Virus record (IMG/VR): IMGVR_UViG_3300002144_000287
Span: 1-46,924 of that record
Source: a virus
Length of the DNA stretch: 46,924 bases
Strand: one strand, 5' to 3'
The notes below the pieces were generated by a model. It saw only the letters and a list, made by a program, of their open reading frames with translations. It made no database searches and was not told where the DNA came from. The translations under genes and the position numbers were made by a program. Shown in pieces: positions 9,619 to 46,924 of the stretch. Each line of letters opens with the position of its first letter. The first letter of the stretch is position 1.

Positions 9619-10059
9619 ATGCGTACAGTAGTGTTTATTCTAGCAATTCTAGTTGCGACTACAGCAACATCAGCAGAATTAAACTTTCAATTTAATAGCC
9701 CTGCCTTTAATGGTATCGGCTATAGTTCTCACGTCTTAACAGTTGAACAATTAGAAGCAAATAGACGTAAGACTAGGCAAGACGACGCTCAAGCTAAAGC
9801 CGACAAATTATTAAGAGACGCCGAAAATACTAACATGGCTAAGTTTCTCAATAACTTAGAGTCAAGGGTATACGCAACACTATCAAAACAGTTAGCAGAT
9901 CAACTGTTTGCCGAAGAAGGTGCATCAAGCGGCGAAATGGATTTAATGGGCAACACTATTAAGTGGAGCAACGACGGATCCGAGATTACTCTGGAAATCA
10001 CCGACGAGTACGGATCCGTTACTACTGTTACTATACCAGTAGGAGACTTTCAATTTTGA
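9619..10059 (+). CDS. csgF: CsgF-like curli assembly factor
   Basis: A 146-residue exported protein. The signal peptide ends around residue 20 (ATTATSAE). The mature N-terminus LNFQFNSPAFNG matches CsgF, which starts MTFQFRNPNFGG and inserts this strand into the CsgG pore. The C-terminus (EITLEITDEYGSVTTVTIPV) also matches the E. coli CsgF tail NVTDRKTGQTSTIQV. E. coli CsgF is 138 residues. CsgF couples CsgG to surface nucleation of curli. It overlaps csgG and follows a perfect late promoter. Confidence 0.85.
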   Translation: MRTVVFILAILVATTATSAELNFQFNSPAFNGIGYSSHVLTVEQLEANRRKTRQDDAQAKADKLLRDAENTNMAKFLNNLESRVYATLSKQLADQLFAEEGASSGEMDLMGNTIKWSNDGSEITLEITDEYGSVTTVTIPVGDFQF

Positions 10060-10871
10060 AAAAGCTGTTGCTGTCATTGGTAGTCGTATCCTTACTAAGC
10101 GGATGCGGCATAACAAAGATTACCGGGCAAATTGACGATCCAGTGGCATGGTCTAATGGGTTAACCGGGCAACGACTTAAAGAGTTTAACGAATTAACAG
10201 CGCCTGCTGGGCCGCCAATGACTGTGGCTGTGTACAGTTTTGTAGACAAAACAGGACAACGTAAACCCAATGATAAAATTGCACAAATCAGCACTGCCGT
10301 TACGCAAGGAAGCGATGTATGGGTAATAGATGCGTTAAAAAGAGTCGGTGGCGGACAATGGTTTAAAGTAATCGAACGTGGTAATTTAGATGCACTAACT
10401 AAAGAACGACAGCTAATTAGACAAACAAGAGAACAGTATCAGGGTAAAGATGCAAAACCATTAAAGCCATTATTGTTTGCAGGCCTAATTGTAGATGGCG
10501 GCATTATAGCTTACGATAGTAACATAGTAAGTGGCGGTGTAGGAGTTAGGGTACTAGGAATAGGTCCAAATACACAATACCGTCAAGACCAAGTAACGGT
10601 GGCACTCAGAGTAGTTAGCGTGAATACCGGGGAAGTATTAGTGACAGTAAGTACCACTAAGACAATATTAAGTGTAGCAACTAGCGTTGGTGCATTTATG
10701 TTCTATGACATGGGTACAAAAAGTTTCGAAGCAGAAACCGGTAGTGCGGCAAACGAGCCTGTTAGTTTTGCTGTAAGAGCCGCCATTGAGCAAACAGTAG
10801 TTGAGATGATTAAACAAGGTGCGGCAAATGGGGTTTGGGATTTTAAACCAAACCCGCCGGCAAAGTGGTAG
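10056..10871 (+). CDS. csgG: CsgG-like curli secretion pore lipoprotein
   Basis: A 271-residue lipoprotein (E. coli CsgG is 277). The signal peptide ends in the lipobox LLSGC with Cys17. Later regions align closely with CsgG: YDSNIVSGGVGVRVLGIG, NTQYRQDQVTVALRVV, TGEVL, TKTILS, then NEPVSFAVRAAIE and WDFKP. CsgG forms a nonameric outer-membrane channel for curlins. Start TTG at 10056 was chosen because AGGAG at 10041-10045 is well spaced, it overlaps the csgF stop, and it begins the lipoprotein signal; the longer in-frame ORF reads through csgF. The constriction loop reads KIAQISTAV where E. coli has ASNFSTAV. Confidence 0.9.
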   Translation: MKKLLLSLVVVSLLSGCGITKITGQIDDPVAWSNGLTGQRLKEFNELTAPAGPPMTVAVYSFVDKTGQRKPNDKIAQISTAVTQGSDVWVIDALKRVGGGQWFKVIERGNLDALTKERQLIRQTREQYQGKDAKPLKPLLFAGLIVDGGIIAYDSNIVSGGVGVRVLGIGPNTQYRQDQVTVALRVVSVNTGEVLVTVSTTKTILSVATSVGAFMFYDMGTKSFEAETGSAANEPVSFAVRAAIEQTVVEMIKQGAANGVWDFKPNPPAKW

Positions 10872-36270: not shown

Positions 36271-37296
36271 TTAGTTCGATTTACATTTTCCGCAAATCTC
36301 GTCGCATACTAACAGTCGTCCTTCTTTATAGGTTGACTGCTTCCAGCTGTCTTCTACCGCTTTAAACCAGTTAATGCAAGTTTCGATCTCGTTTTCTAAT
36401 GCATTGTTGCTGTTAATCAACGGTGTAAGTTGCGAGTTTAGAGCCTGCATGTAACTACCTTTGCCAAATGTAGCAGGGTAGAATCCAGTATAACAGCACG
36501 GACTAACATCGCCGGTTGCTGAAATATAGATTCGTTTATTTTCTACTGTGTCGCAAGTTAGTTCGATTTCGTTATTTTCAGGATCTAGTCTTGCGGCAGT
36601 ATTTTCTACTGTACGTTCTTCACTACGTTGGTCAATGAATACCGTTTGCCAGTCAGTTGGTCCAGTGTAATCTCCAAGTACGTGTGTTAGTTCCTTTTGT
36701 TGATTAAACACTGGGCCAGTATCCCTACCATGCTCAATCATTGAAAAACTTTTAAATCCTAAATCTCTGCACAATTGACGCATTTCTTCAATTTGATGTT
36801 CGTTGTGTTTGAACTTAATTGTTTTCCAAACTGCATGCCCGCCAGCGCCAATGAAGAATTGCGAATTTTTAATTACTGTGCGCCATAGTGTGTTTTGCCT
36901 ATAGATACTATGAGTCTCTTCAATGCCGTCGATGCAAAACAATACTATTGCGCCAGATTTTGCTAATCGTTGCCAAAATTCAGCAGGTCTCGCTCCACCG
37001 TTAGTACTAACTACAATTCGCAAATCGGCGTTTTGTTCTCTAAAATACTCAACAATGTCCGGACCGTCAGGATTCATAACGATGTCGCCAAAGTTACCAT
37101 TTATAACAATCTCACGCAACTGCTGTAGGAATGCAGGTTTGAATATTGTTTTGGCTTGCTCTAATGTCATGTATGTTTCAGGGTACCCATCATTGTGCGG
37201 ATAGCCATTGAAGTTCCTTGGGCATTGCGGACACGATGCGTTACATAGTGTGCTAACTTCTAAGTGTACTTCTTTAATATCTTTATAATTAATCAT
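36271..37296 (-). CDS. radical SAM protein with SPASM-like C-terminus
   Basis: A 341-residue radical SAM enzyme. CNASCPQC at residues 18-25 is the CxxxCxxC motif that binds the [4Fe-4S] cluster. Further cysteines in the C-terminal third (SPCC, ETCIN, LVCDEICGKC) suggest a SPASM/twitch domain with extra clusters, as in peptide- or protein-modifying enzymes. The substrate is unknown. It is last in a run with amidinotransferase and DUF6614-like genes, and these may act in one pathway. Confidence 0.88.
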   Translation of the reverse strand: MINYKDIKEVHLEVSTLCNASCPQCPRNFNGYPHNDGYPETYMTLEQAKTIFKPAFLQQLREIVINGNFGDIVMNPDGPDIVEYFREQNADLRIVVSTNGGARPAEFWQRLAKSGAIVLFCIDGIEETHSIYRQNTLWRTVIKNSQFFIGAGGHAVWKTIKFKHNEHQIEEMRQLCRDLGFKSFSMIEHGRDTGPVFNQQKELTHVLGDYTGPTDWQTVFIDQRSEERTVENTAARLDPENNEIELTCDTVENKRIYISATGDVSPCCYTGFYPATFGKGSYMQALNSQLTPLINSNNALENEIETCINWFKAVEDSWKQSTYKEGRLLVCDEICGKCKSN

Positions 37297-37642: not shown

Positions 37643-38776
37643 TTATTTCCTCCCGGGAAAGTAATCTTGTTGACTGCCGGTGCGATCTAAGTCGCTAGTA
37701 ACACAGTGCCAACCACCGTCCCAAAAATAACGATGTCTAAAGTTGATAACGTGTGCAGTTATGCCACGAGCATCAAATGCGTCAAATACTGCTTTGTTAT
37801 AGTTATTACATACAACATTATGTTTGTCGATAACCAACATATTAACATCGAACACGGTTTCTTCTACATAGCCAACCCAGTGCCCTAACCATCCTTCAAC
37901 GAAATTAGTAAAGTCGTCGTTTAGTTCTTCGCCTGGGACCCACCATTTGCCGTTATTCTTTTGCTTTAAGTCCATGAACGGCTTAATTCTATTCCAGCTT
38001 TGCCCCGGCAACGAAATAACTTCCCAACCGGGATAAGTCTTTTCGTAAGTAATTGGGCCTAATAGGCTAACAATAAGTCCCGGTGCTACAGGGCAATAGA
38101 TTCCGTCGCTATGCCCAATCGTGTCAATGATATGTGTTCGGTAGTCCGGAAACAGGCGTATGGTCTGCTGTGTTTCTTGATCCCGATCAACTGCGGTTGA
38201 TCGATCAACTGTTCCAAAGAATAAATCTTTACCTATCCTGGCACACTGTGCTCGATTTAACGTAAGTTCGGTATTTTCAATTACAGTATTGCCGTTGCTT
38301 GCAATATAGTCAGTGATATGCTGGTATGCTCGGTGCGGAATTAATTGGCTATCAACTGAACGGGCAAGCTCTTGTTTAATTGGATCTGGCAGATCAGCCA
38401 GGTCCGAGATAGTTGAAACAACAGGCCAATGCTCTGCACGAATTCTGTTGTATACTGTTACTTCTGATGTCCAGCTATGATAAAATTGGTCCCCTATCAT
38501 AACAGAAAAGTCGCACGGTGTCATTGGCGGTGTTGCAATTTTTCCATCTACTATATAATCCGTGTACTCATCCGAGACTACCGGTCTATGCACTTTTACA
38601 TTAAACTGATTAAGCAATGCAATTAATTTCTGAAAGTCTTCTTCGGTCTCTCTTGCAATACGTTCCATAACAGTACGTACCCGTTCGTTAGTAATGAACT
38701 TATAAAACTCAGGGCTATACGATCTGCCAACAATGCACTCTCTTAACGGATCCCAGGGTTGATGGACACTAAACAT
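37643..38776 (-). CDS. amidinotransferase-family protein (glycine amidinotransferase-like)
   Basis: A 377-residue protein of the amidinotransferase superfamily, whose members move an amidino group from arginine to an amine, as in creatine or streptomycin synthesis. HQPWDPLRECIVG matches the N-terminus of AGAT, HSDGIYCPVAPGLIVS carries the catalytic His (His222), and GGWHCVTSDLDR carries the catalytic Cys (Cys358). The acidic DAA(D/N) motif of the family reads NRAQ at 174-177, so the usual catalytic Asp looks replaced. It may act on another substrate or by another route. The ATG shares a base with the helicase stop (TAATG). Confidence 0.85.
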   Translation of the reverse strand: MFSVHQPWDPLRECIVGRSYSPEFYKFITNERVRTVMERIARETEEDFQKLIALLNQFNVKVHRPVVSDEYTDYIVDGKIATPPMTPCDFSVMIGDQFYHSWTSEVTVYNRIRAEHWPVVSTISDLADLPDPIKQELARSVDSQLIPHRAYQHITDYIASNGNTVIENTELTLNRAQCARIGKDLFFGTVDRSTAVDRDQETQQTIRLFPDYRTHIIDTIGHSDGIYCPVAPGLIVSLLGPITYEKTYPGWEVISLPGQSWNRIKPFMDLKQKNNGKWWVPGEELNDDFTNFVEGWLGHWVGYVEETVFDVNMLVIDKHNVVCNNYNKAVFDAFDARGITAHVINFRHRYFWDGGWHCVTSDLDRTGSQQDYFPGRK

Positions 38777-42735: not shown

Positions 42736-42764
42736 ACTATAACACATGTTAGCGCCAGTGTCAA
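42736..42764 (-). promoter_or_regulatory. sigma70 promoter TTGACA-17-TATAGT with near-zero leader
   Basis: On the minus strand TTGACA (42764-42759) and TATAGT (42741-42736) are 17 bases apart. Only 8 bases separate the -10 box from the primase ATG at 42727, so the mRNA would start at or next to the start codon. It drives the run to 36271. Confidence 0.78.
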
Positions 42765-42765
42765 G

Positions 42766-44244
42766 TTATAATGCTAATAATTTTTGGATATAAAGTTGTA
42801 AATTGGCTTGACGCTCGGTATTGATTGCGGTGTGATCAACATTGTTGATATTAACAAAGTTATGTACTTTAGGATCTAAGTTGCAGTATTGTACTTCTTC
42901 CATTAATGCAAAGCAATTATTAACTTGATAAGGTGCTTTCAATGATTCCATCTCGTAATACATTTCTAGTGCGTCCCTGAAAGTAATACCAGACTCTTTG
43001 TACTTCCAAATTGGCTGTCCGTTTTCGATAGTCCAGGTATAACCGTATTCTTCAGCATTACGGTCGATTTCGCTGTTATTCGGAGCATTGGTATCACGCT
43101 CGAGTATCAATGGGTGCCAACTCCAATTCGGAATCTCGTTTTCAACAAACCAACGATGCCAACTAATGTAATCTTTACGTGTGTCTCCGGGTAAACCAAT
43201 GATCATGCTAGTACGGAAACTCACTTGATTTTTCCAAATATCGCGACGTAGTTTTTGTAAGTAGGTTTGGCCGCGACGATAGCTCCAGGGTTTAGCAATA
43301 AACTTGGACGCTCGCTCATTAAAACTTTCAATACCAAAGTAAGCGCCAACAAATCCAGACTCTGCCAACAACTCAGGTGTTTCAGGATGGGCTTCTAGCA
43401 AGTCGGGTCGCATAAAAGCGCTAACGTTAATTTTAAAAGGTAAGCGTTGCGTTAGCTCGTAGAAGGCATGCACTTTATCAGGGTCATCATTGAACGTGTC
43501 ATCTACTAAATAATAGTTAGTAGTTCCAAATCTGGCATAGTTGTCTAACATTTCTTTTTCAATGTGTTGCATCTCTCGCAGATACTCACCTTTGCGTTTT
43601 CCAATATGCGGAAACGCACAGAACTTACATTTAAAAATACAACCGCGGCCGATTTCAATGGGCAGGCTTTCGCCAGGCAAAATGCAATCTTCGTCTGCCC
43701 ACTTATGGTCTAACCGTTTAATATCGAATTGATCGTCCATTGAAATTGGGCAAGGGGTAGTTTCCCTGATAACCATGTTTCCGTTTTTACGCTCGGGTAG
43801 AATAATTTTGCCTTTGCGGAAAACTTGGTTACACAAAGCTAATACACCATTTTCAGCGTAGCCAAAGAAGTGATAATCGAAGCCAGTTCTGTTAGGATAT
43901 CTGTTAGTAGCGTATTGCACCACTGGGCCACCAGTGATAAACACTACCCATGGATAACGTTCTCTTAATTTAGGCAAGTATTTTTCAACAAATCGTTTAG
44001 ATTGTCCAATGTTGTTCTCCATTGTTCCCATAGTGCCCCAACCAATGATTTTAGTTTCTGTTGTTACAAAATGTTCAATTAGTCTTACCAAGTCTGCGTC
44101 GGCCATTTGTACAGTAAAGTCAATTACCTGCACAGAATAGTCATGCTGGCGTAGCCACCAAGCCAACTGATGACCGCCGGTTGTCCTATACAGGCGTTCA
44201 GTGCCGCATATGCCAGACAATAAAAGTACTTGAGGGCTAGCCAT
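42766..44244 (-). CDS. B12-binding-type radical SAM protein
   Basis: A 492-residue protein. The N-terminal 190 residues look like the Rossmann/B12-binding domain of this family (VLLLSGICGTERL, then WGTMGTMENN, FITGGPVV), although the usual DxHxxG histidine motif is not seen. The radical SAM domain has CIFKCKFC at about 207-214 and GESLPIEIGRG just before. It resembles MiaB/BchE-like class B enzymes or B12-type methyltransferases. The start shares a base with the stop of the DUF3050 gene (TAATG), implying coupling and joint function. The substrate is unknown. Confidence 0.87.
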   Translation of the reverse strand: MASPQVLLLSGICGTERLYRTTGGHQLAWWLRQHDYSVQVIDFTVQMADADLVRLIEHFVTTETKIIGWGTMGTMENNIGQSKRFVEKYLPKLRERYPWVVFITGGPVVQYATNRYPNRTGFDYHFFGYAENGVLALCNQVFRKGKIILPERKNGNMVIRETTPCPISMDDQFDIKRLDHKWADEDCILPGESLPIEIGRGCIFKCKFCAFPHIGKRKGEYLREMQHIEKEMLDNYARFGTTNYYLVDDTFNDDPDKVHAFYELTQRLPFKINVSAFMRPDLLEAHPETPELLAESGFVGAYFGIESFNERASKFIAKPWSYRRGQTYLQKLRRDIWKNQVSFRTSMIIGLPGDTRKDYISWHRWFVENEIPNWSWHPLILERDTNAPNNSEIDRNAEEYGYTWTIENGQPIWKYKESGITFRDALEMYYEMESLKAPYQVNNCFALMEEVQYCNLDPKVHNFVNINNVDHTAINTERQANLQLYIQKLLAL

Positions 44245-45062
44245 TAGACAACTCCAGCGGTTGCAAATAATTCCGAGTACAATGCAGTTTCGTCTGGATC
44301 ATTGATAATAGCATAGACTTTATCCCATAATCTAATACGTGCATCAATTGCGCTCAGTGCCGCTTGCTCGGCTTCGTGTATCTTAACAGGATCGTGTTCG
44401 CATAGTGTCTCAACCATATGTAATGCTGCCGGACCGTGTTCCCCGCCATCAATATCGATGTGTCGTTGTAGGTAGTAATGAAACTTAGGCGCATCATGTT
44501 CGGTTACCTTCATTTGGTTAAGCAAACTGGTAAACATGTCAGGGATAAGTGTTTCTCTACCAAATGCAAATGCGCCGGCAATGACATGTGGCTTCTTAGT
44601 GTGAATAAAGCTAAATGTTGTACGCATAAAACTTGCACTTGCTGGAGGCACTTGGGCATTGCCCATTGCTTCGTCAAAGCCGTAGTTTCTCACCCGCTCA
44701 ATGAAGGCTTCAAAGTTGCGACCATTAGCTCCAATTTCAAGCATAGCCTGTGCATACAAATCATGATGGGTAATAGTTCCATTCCCGGACATGTCGACAT
44801 CACTTTCTTCGCCTAGGACAATTTCGTTAATGAGTCTGGCAACACCAGCTCTTGCCCATTTGGTAGGTACCCAACATTCGGTACTAGGGCATACATGATG
44901 CTGTAACGATTTAATAAGACTCATAAAGTCCCAAACAGCATAAACATGATGCTCCATGAATATGTGTAAGTCAGCTAGTGATTTTAAACTGTTGCCTGTG
45001 AATAACGGATGTGCGCTTAGAACTGCTTGTCGCTCTTCAATTCTTGAAATATTCAATTTCAT
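44244..45062 (-). CDS. DUF3050 haem-oxygenase-like protein (probable di-iron oxidase)
   Basis: A 272-residue protein matching DUF3050, a family of the haem-oxygenase-like di-iron oxidase fold. DLHIFMEHHVYAVWDFMS is typical, as are LINEIVLGEESD (Glu85 and Glu86) and YYLQRHIDIDGGEHG (His201, Asp203, Glu208, His209), which supply possible iron ligands. It should activate oxygen. It lies next to the radical SAM gene with coupled start. Known relatives of this fold oxidise amino acids, fatty acids or guanidines; the substrate here is unknown. A late-type promoter lies about 60 bases upstream. Confidence 0.85.
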   Translation of the reverse strand: MKLNISRIEERQAVLSAHPLFTGNSLKSLADLHIFMEHHVYAVWDFMSLIKSLQHHVCPSTECWVPTKWARAGVARLINEIVLGEESDVDMSGNGTITHHDLYAQAMLEIGANGRNFEAFIERVRNYGFDEAMGNAQVPPASASFMRTTFSFIHTKKPHVIAGAFAFGRETLIPDMFTSLLNQMKVTEHDAPKFHYYLQRHIDIDGGEHGPAALHMVETLCEHDPVKIHEAEQAALSAIDARIRLWDKVYAIINDPDETALYSELFATAGVV

Positions 45063-45122: not shown

Positions 45123-45130
45123 TATTTATT
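45123..45130 (-). promoter_or_regulatory. late promoter-like AATAAATA before DUF3050/radical SAM pair
   Basis: The minus strand reads AATAAATA, a T4-type late octamer with one difference, 60 bases before the ATG at 45062. The leader includes the hairpin at 45095-45112. Confidence 0.42.
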
Positions 45131-45262: not shown

Positions 45263-46138
45263 ATGAACAAACTATTAGCGGCAATGTTTGCCACTATTGC
45301 ATTAACTGCAAACGCATTTACCATCACTGGCGCAGGCGCTAGTTTTCCTTATCCAGTCTATGCTAAATGGGCAGAGCAATATAAAGCAGAAACTGGTAAC
45401 ATCGTAAACTATCAATCAATCGGTAGTTCGGGTGGTATTAAACAGATCGACAGAAAAACAGTAGACTTTGGTGCAAGCGATGTTGCTCGCAGTCAAGAGG
45501 AGTTGGATAAACACGGACAAGTACAGTTCCCAATGGTAATGGGTGGAGTAGTTGTAGTTGTTAACTTACCAGGAGTAGAGTCCAATCAACTAAACTTAAC
45601 ACTAACACAAGTAGCAGACATTTTCTCTAGTAAGATTACCAACTGGAAAGATGTGCAAGCAGGATTACCAGATAGACCTATCTCTATTGTTCATCGTTCT
45701 GACGGTTCAGGTACTACTGCAATCTTTACAGGTTATCTGTCAGCAGAGTCAGCAGACTTTAAAGCTAAGATAGGTGAAGGTAAAGCAGTCAAGTGGCAAG
45801 GCAACATTGTTGGCGGCAAAGGAAATGCAGGCGTGGCAGCAATGGTTGGTCAGATCAAAGGTGCAATTGGATATGTTGAGTATGCATATGCAAAGCAAAA
45901 CGGATTGACTACTACAAAGATTAACGGTGTTGAACCTAGTGCTGAAGCATTTAAGAGTGGTGAGTGGACACTGACTGCATCGACATTTATCATTGTTTAC
46001 CCTAACGGAGAAAAGACACAAGATGTTTACAAGTTCTTTGAATGGTGCTACAACAATGATGCAATTGCAGAGTCATTGGACTATGTTGCACTAAGTGCCA
46101 AAGTTAAAGCAGAAACAAGAGCATTGTGGAAAAAATAA
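45263..46138 (+). CDS. pstS: PstS phosphate-binding protein
   Basis: A 291-residue periplasmic phosphate-binding protein. A signal peptide ends at about residue 18 (LTANAF). ITGAGASFPYPVYAKW, the SIGSSGGIKQI motif, GASDVA and HRSDGSGTT with the phosphate-contacting Ser/Asp/Arg set are present. It is shorter than typical PstS (about 320-346) because of a gap in the late part (around FKSGEWTLTASTF). It feeds the host PstCAB importer. AAAGGAG and a Pho box precede it and a terminator follows. Confidence 0.93.
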   Translation: MNKLLAAMFATIALTANAFTITGAGASFPYPVYAKWAEQYKAETGNIVNYQSIGSSGGIKQIDRKTVDFGASDVARSQEELDKHGQVQFPMVMGGVVVVVNLPGVESNQLNLTLTQVADIFSSKITNWKDVQAGLPDRPISIVHRSDGSGTTAIFTGYLSAESADFKAKIGEGKAVKWQGNIVGGKGNAGVAAMVGQIKGAIGYVEYAYAKQNGLTTTKINGVEPSAEAFKSGEWTLTASTFIIVYPNGEKTQDVYKFFEWCYNNDAIAESLDYVALSAKVKAETRALWKK

Positions 46139-46250: not shown

Positions 46251-46924
46251 ATGGCAACAAGAAAATTAGTATCAAAACATGTAAATGTAGCAAGTGGCGA
46301 CTATATTGGCCGAGTCGGCGAACTTTGGGTGGACACAGTAACCAACACTATGAAGATTAGTGACGGGACAACTCCGGGCGGTGCAACACTTACAACAGAC
46401 GGTGGTGCAGGTGCTGTGACTTGGGCAGCTATTACTAATATTAATAATATCAATGGTCCAGACAATATAGCAGTAGGTAATAGTGCAGGTTTTACTAACC
46501 AAGGTACATATGGCATTGCACTTGGATTTGGTGCAGGCGATGAGAACCAAGGCATTGCCGCAATCAGCATCGGCTACACGGCGGGCGTTCTCAATCAAAG
46601 CGAAGGTGCAGTAGCAGTTGGATATCAAGCAGGTAACACAACACAAGGCACAAAGGCAGTAGCAATTGGTGTAGAAGCAGGTCAAACAACTCAAGGCACG
46701 AGCGCAGTAGCAATTGGTGATCAAGCAGGTAGAACAACTCAAGGCACTCTGGCAGTAGCATTAGGCAATAGTGCAGGTGAAACAGATCAAGCCACAAATT
46801 CAGTAGCAGTTGGCAATCTTGCAGGTCAAACAACTCAAGGTGACTATGCAGTGGCAGTTGGACCTTATGCAGGTAACATAACACAAGGCGGATCAGCAGT
46901 AGCAGTTGGATATCAAGCAGGTAA
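46251..46924 (+). CDS. tail fibre/adhesin with YadA-like repeats, partial at 3' end
   Basis: At least 224 residues, running off the window. The N-terminal part (LVSKHVNVASGDYIGRVGEL, WVDTVTNTMKISDG) is a phage fibre-type domain like the start of the protein at 23914. From about residue 72, 16-residue repeats of the form AVAIGxxAGxTTQGTx follow, similar to the AxAIGxxAxA repeats of trimeric autotransporter heads such as YadA, which wind into a three-stranded beta-roll. It is probably a trimeric receptor-binding fibre. No stop codon appears in the window. Confidence 0.85.
   Translation, partial: MATRKLVSKHVNVASGDYIGRVGELWVDTVTNTMKISDGTTPGGATLTTDGGAGAVTWAAITNINNINGPDNIAVGNSAGFTNQGTYGIALGFGAGDENQGIAAISIGYTAGVLNQSEGAVAVGYQAGNTTQGTKAVAIGVEAGQTTQGTSAVAIGDQAGRTTQGTLAVALGNSAGETDQATNSVAVGNLAGQTTQGDYAVAVGPYAGNITQGGSAVAVGYQAG
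46464..46924 (+). repeat. 48-base tandem repeats in the fibre gene
   Basis: The repeat unit is 48 bases (16 codons), with starts at about 46464, 46512, 46560, 46608, 46656, 46704, 46752, 46800, 46848 and 46896, continuing past the window. The first three copies are the most diverged; later copies share GCAGTAGCA and ACTCAAGGC stretches. Copy number may vary between related phages. Confidence 0.9.

Follow-up and report, generated by a model that had tools for sequence, protein, structure and literature searches.

Two overlapping genes of a virus of bacteria, encoding a DUF3050 protein and a radical SAM protein, appear to form a phage-encoded two-enzyme tailoring module with a presumed shared substrate and a product that would serve infection, a reading to which we assign a probability of about 0.6. 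The linkage between DUF3050 and radical SAM genes is well supported by the sequence comparisons described below. The kinds of enzyme involved are already known; the conserved phage tandem seems to be new, and the literature searched yielded no account of phages that pair DUF3050 with radical SAM genes. A 2022 report placed a DUF3050 gene on a Nit1C contig together with the radical SAM gene nitD (PMC9716671).

The gene pair and its predicted enzymes

The window, the whole 46,924-base IMG/VR virus record analysed here, carries phage genes for a tail spike, a DnaB helicase and a ribonucleotide reductase. Both genes of the pair lie on the minus strand: the DUF3050 gene (44244..45062; 272 aa; PF11251), encoding a HamA-type haem-oxygenase-like diiron oxidase, is followed by a cobalamin-fold, class B-type radical SAM gene (42766..44244; 492 aa; PF04055 and PF02310). 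At their junction (44242..44246, minus strand), the coding strand reads ...TCTAATGGCT..., and the TAA stop and the ATG start have the A at 44244 in common, so that the TAATG overlap described in the sequence-only reading is indeed present, as a one-base overlap. Overlaps of 1-4 bases (TAATG, ATGA) also occur in the related loci L012, L013 and L015. Searches of GenBank phages by tblastn with either protein gave no match. Elsewhere in the window are a gene for the curli secretion channel CsgG (9963-10871, plus strand; E 4.5e-53), curli genes being reported in pelagimyophages (PMC7029224), a divergent phosphate-binding-protein-like gene (45263-46138, plus strand) and a repetitive adhesin-like ORF with GNxAGxxTQGxxAVAVG-like repeats that runs off the window end (46251-46922, plus strand).

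The late-type promoter that had been proposed ahead of the pair did not hold up, and we dropped it because its motif matches were at chance level. The motif TATAAATA occurs once in the window, away from the pair, against 4.3 occurrences expected; the near-match AATAAATA at 45123-45130 (minus strand), near the start of the pair, is one of five in the window against 4.7 expected; and sigma-70-like matches are likewise no more frequent than chance. A strong sigma-70-like match at 42736-42764 (minus strand; TTGACA-17-TATAGT with an extended -10) sits between the radical SAM stop and a primase-like gene, where it may mark the boundary between two transcription units.

The DUF3050 protein matches PF11251 over the entire profile (E 1.6e-83; 280 bits against a cut-off of 22.2) and retrieves HamA (PDB 9vwb) in a phmmer search with an E-value of 1.7e-57. 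Its AlphaFold2 model (pLDDT 88.7) has HamA as the nearest solved structure, with 40% identity, TM-scores of 0.81/0.88 and a Z-score of 29.9 (rmsd 2.0, 244 residues aligned), followed by HrmI, CADD and UndA at Z ~20 (207-227 residues, rmsd 2.6-3.2). The candidate diiron ligands are E85/E86, H99, E170, H201, D205 and H209, and they include an HxxxDxxxH motif whose codons, for residues 201-209, span 44436..44462 (minus strand). In an alignment of 48 DUF3050 proteins, E85, E86, H99, E170 and H201 are present in all 48, and D205 and H209 in 47 of 47, with one gap. A homology model of a DUF3050 protein gave identical ligand residue types (PMC4520260). The assignment to the haem-oxygenase-like di-iron class is thus borne out by the family match, the HamA fold and the invariance of the candidate ligands, and by sequence and predicted structure the protein is a HamA-family haem-oxygenase-like protein with a complete candidate diiron site.

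HamA acts in the valine-derived fragin/valdiazen pathway (PMC11659414) and is proposed to contribute to the formation of an N-N bond, its exact reaction likewise being a proposal (PMC11705231); no reaction was found in the literature as searched for DUF3050 proteins outside the ham, pvf and mgo pathways. HamA, PvfA and MgoB, from the clusters of those names, share with the window protein the Pfam family, a close predicted fold and the full set of candidate diiron ligands. The closeness to HamA and the proposed N-N chemistry would be consistent with the pair making a small diffusible metabolite of ham/pvf/mgo type (a diazeniumdiolate, or an N-oxygenated amino-acid signal or metallophore), in which case the HamA step would come from the phage. 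However, ham, pvf and mgo clusters pair this enzyme with an AurF-type N-oxygenase and an NRPS-like partner, whereas the window pair has a radical SAM gene, and neither an AurF-type nor an NRPS-like gene was recognised among the neighbours of the pair that were read. In the window and seven further phage records of up to 228 kb, all of which may be fragments of the whole phages, there is no AurF-type N-oxygenase (PF11583), and AMP-binding (adenylation) domains occur in only two of the eight, away from the pair; a full ham-like pathway was dropped for these reasons. Since, in the DUF3050 tree, HamA itself groups with bacterial sequences and not within the phage clade, and its own reaction is a proposed one, we consider a ham-type metabolite improbable.

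The second protein matches Radical_SAM (PF04055) with an E-value of 2e-17. A match to the B12-binding family PF02310 at residues 27-136 scores 25.5 bits, below the cut-off of 32.1, and lies in an N-terminal domain (about residues 1-145; 43810..44244, minus strand) with alternating strands and helices in the structure model (pLDDT 89.9). The CxxxCxxC [4Fe-4S]/SAM motif, here CIFKCKFC (43618..43641, minus strand), is intact in 11 of 11 paired homologues, and conservation of a DxHxxG motif is absent from their alignment. The best solved folds are OxsB, MgmA and TsrM (Z ~21 over 360-430 residues, rmsd ~4.1-4.4), so the class B-type assignment made earlier stands at the fold level. RimO, MiaB and AprD4 come within about one Z unit of these, which means that the fold alone is no proof of cobalamin use; AprD4 has a B12-type fold yet is not known to use B12, so that a cobalamin fold may go without the cofactor. 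With class B enzymes (OxsB, TsrM, MgmA, CysS, TokK) and the PhpK and ladderane (TIGR04072) subfamilies, its best fold and profile matches, the protein shares a B12-binding-type N-terminus and a CxxxCxxC core. No NCBIfam subfamily was reached, the scores being 68.7 of 600 bits for PhpK (TIGR04479) and 56.4 of 360 for TIGR04072, and with scores this far under every curated cut-off it falls in no named subfamily. It is predicted to be a radical SAM protein with a B12-binding-type N-terminal domain.

Linkage and partner exchange in phages

Among the scored loci from scans of IMG/VR, clustering of DUF3050 at 95% identity left 22 non-redundant clusters. DUF3050 queries retrieved every locus but L054, which came from the radical SAM scan; L041 was left out of the adjacency count, as its DUF3050 frame was missing from the gene calls kept. 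Neighbours were readable for 21 of the 22 clusters, L040 being cut by the contig end, and a radical SAM gene lies directly beside DUF3050 in 20 of these 21 (the exception is L042). Half of the 20 have a B12-fold partner from the family found in the window (the window, L011, L013, L015, L016, L017, L020, L022, L023 and L054), and the other half adjoin a SPASM-type radical SAM cassette. Gene orders vary, with DUF3050 first, radical SAM first, tail-to-tail arrangements and DUF3050 between two radical SAM genes. The search for such pairs elsewhere that the sequence-only reading had proposed as a check therefore came out in its favour: the pair itself, or DUF3050 with another radical SAM gene, recurs in many phages and several bacteria.

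This adjacency has to be set against the abundance of radical SAM genes in these genomes. The largest record has about 9 in 228 kb, from which we roughly estimate that some 6% of genes would have an immediate radical SAM neighbour by chance, and large records hold at most 9-11. The loci are also related, so that 20 of 21 does not amount to 20 independent events. Moreover, the window-type radical SAM family is also found in phages whose records show no DUF3050, and can therefore act alone. These points would fit two independent auxiliary genes that lie side by side without a joint function. Against this, the immediate neighbourhood is nearly constant and persists in several orientations, the partners have co-diverged and been exchanged, and some bacteria pair DUF3050 with divergent B12-type radical SAM genes. 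We regard adjacency without joint function as quite unlikely.

Co-divergence and exchange are both apparent from the comparison of the two families. Across 11 pairs, the identities of the partners correlate with r 0.93, a value as high being obtained in 2 of 10,000 permutations. In the tree of the 48 DUF3050 proteins, the cassette-linked phage proteins and that of the myxobacterium Enhygromyxa salina form one clade (100/96), within which a B12-linked subclade (10 phages and Enhygromyxa; 100/99) is nested among SPASM-linked proteins. This nesting indicates that one radical SAM partner gave way to another without loss of the adjacency. The radical SAM tree calls for long-branch caution and is used here for one point alone, the intermingling of paired and unpaired members.

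The genomic surroundings of the window pair also bear on a role in making or modifying a nucleotide or DNA base (DNA hypermodification). The next gene downstream is primase-like and is followed by a DnaB-like helicase gene, which would agree with such a role. In L020, L022, L023 and L054, however, which lie outside the clade of the window, the pair is not beside these replication genes, and the fold match to viperin (Z ~13, 230 residues, rmsd 4.2) covers the radical SAM core only. DNA hypermodification thus seems very improbable.

Other genes of possible biosynthetic interest were noted in these records. A few genes downstream of the pair, the window has a second radical SAM gene (36271-37296, minus strand) with a weak SPASM match, which falls into one cluster with genes from three related phage loci, L019 among them. 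The product of the gene at 37643-38776 (minus strand) resembles arginine:glycine amidinotransferases in the PDB over its C-terminal part (E 4e-10; the matched stretch includes GGWHCVTSDL), and it has a 27% identical relative near the cut-off DUF3050 of L040. The large phage contigs of L019 (203-211 kb) and L040 (32-40 kb) show about 5-6 radical SAM matches in a row, and that of L040 has an AMP-binding match at 42.8 kb. Near members of the window-type radical SAM family in L022 (12921-15927), L051 (12200-19866) and L056 are proteins with SGG(I/L/A)DS motifs, resembling asparagine-synthase-type ATP pyrophosphatases, together with Rieske, desaturase-like and fatty-acid-hydroxylase-type proteins; the gene content of these neighbourhoods suggests further phage biosynthetic clusters.

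SPASM cassettes and bacterial relatives

The SPASM cassettes (L025:3491-10744, L027:4577-10741, L029, L031, L032:4524-10762, L036 and L038:7099-14191) combine DUF3050 with as many as three radical SAM genes of SPASM type and one radical-SAM-like gene without a Pfam match (cluster 3), and many of the genes around them are putative tail genes. They also contain an ORF of ~64 aa whose leader (HxHxFxDDY) is conserved and whose tail is Cys-rich (for example NCQCNCQRGSI or CNCNCNCNCSRGIL); this ORF lies upstream of a radical SAM gene whose best NCBIfam match, below cut-off, is the PapB ranthipeptide maturase. From this composition, each cassette looks like a phage-encoded RiPP-type cluster. Like the window pair, the cassettes (L025-L038) have a DUF3050 of the same phage clade with radical SAM adjoining; they differ in the SPASM type, the multiple radical SAM genes and the Cys-tailed small ORF.

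These cassettes raise the possibility of a RiPP-like maturation in which the target of the pair is a structural protein or peptide of the phage, such as a tail protein or adhesin. The sister DUF3050 clade, with its Cys-tailed ORF and tail-gene-rich surroundings, speaks for it, as do relatives of the window in which a gene with a weak BppU_N match lies just upstream of DUF3050, and so does a report of pelagimyophages with radical SAM cassettes in their host-recognition region (PMC7029224). On the other hand, no Cys-tailed ORF is found at the window pair: a search with a profile of the SPASM-type precursor gave no match in the window or the B12-type loci, and the leftover Cys-containing short frames near the pair look like chance. 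The two tail-like neighbour families reach an hhalign probability of only 6.7%, for which reason we do not claim a common tail-protein neighbour for both DUF3050 classes, and the Enhygromyxa pair sits with asparagine synthetase genes instead. Structural protein or peptide maturation is consequently a reading that we think rather unlikely.

When 84,980 species genomes were searched with an alignment of the radical SAM proteins, one full-length relative came up, in Enhygromyxa salina (L122; 43% identity), where the gene is tail-to-tail with DUF3050 and the pair adjoins glutamine-dependent asparagine synthetase genes. The position of the Enhygromyxa DUF3050 inside the phage clade suggests a transfer from a phage lineage. 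Among 282 Myxococcota genomes, 32 have DUF3050 and none besides Enhygromyxa has a close radical SAM homologue; in 2 of 20 Myxococcota loci read (L162 and L168), a different, unrelated B12-type radical SAM gene lies directly upstream of DUF3050. A Mesorhizobium plasmid carries, in a row, two genes for radical SAM proteins, one for an alanine racemase, DUF3050 and one TldD-type gene, and on the Thiodictyon plasmid pTs485 (L181, 6926-14716) several genes of cobalamin biosynthesis (cobM, precorrin-8X methylmutase, cbiE) follow DUF3050 in a run.

A proposed tailoring module

In PQQ biosynthesis, the haem-oxygenase-fold oxidase PqqC, which is not known to use a metal, and the SPASM radical SAM enzyme PqqE act on one peptide-derived scaffold. 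PqqC matches the DUF3050 model in fold (Z 18.7, 227 residues, rmsd 3.5), and the resemblance to the window pair is an analogy only. In the module that we propose, the radical SAM enzyme would act through a 5'-deoxyadenosyl radical, probably together with cobalamin. Its target would be a carbon centre in a substrate that is amino-acid-derived or peptidyl/carrier-bound, and the change a C-methylation or the formation of another C-X bond. The diiron enzyme would then use O2 to oxidise the same substrate, whether by N-oxygenation, by hydroxylation or by oxidative cleavage. The product might serve infection either as a modified component of the tail or the host or as a small effector.

The two-step pathway suggested earlier is a fair inference from the linkage, the overlap, the co-divergence and the partner exchange. 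A lipid, cofactor, amino acid or nucleoside had been suggested as the substrate; the context points mildly towards amino-acid or peptidyl chemistry, as HamA acts in a valine-derived pathway, the SPASM cassettes have a Cys-tailed ORF with a PapB-like gene, and the Enhygromyxa pair adjoins asparagine synthetases. Counting against the tailoring module are the capacity of adjacency to persist through shared inheritance, many of the loci being close relatives, and the finding of no precursor peptide, carrier protein or ligase beside the window pair. More speculatively, and with less confidence than for the pair itself, DUF3050 diiron oxidases joined to radical SAM enzymes of B12-fold or SPASM type might represent a widespread phage strategy for making ribosomal-peptide or amino-acid natural products during infection, with the Enhygromyxa copy acquired from a phage; we think this broader picture rather unlikely.

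The conserved, partner-exchanging link to radical SAM genes provides a testable handle on the role of the DUF3050 family. It also suggests that the chemistry of large phages goes further than boosting host metabolism and includes O2- and radical-dependent reactions that they encode themselves.
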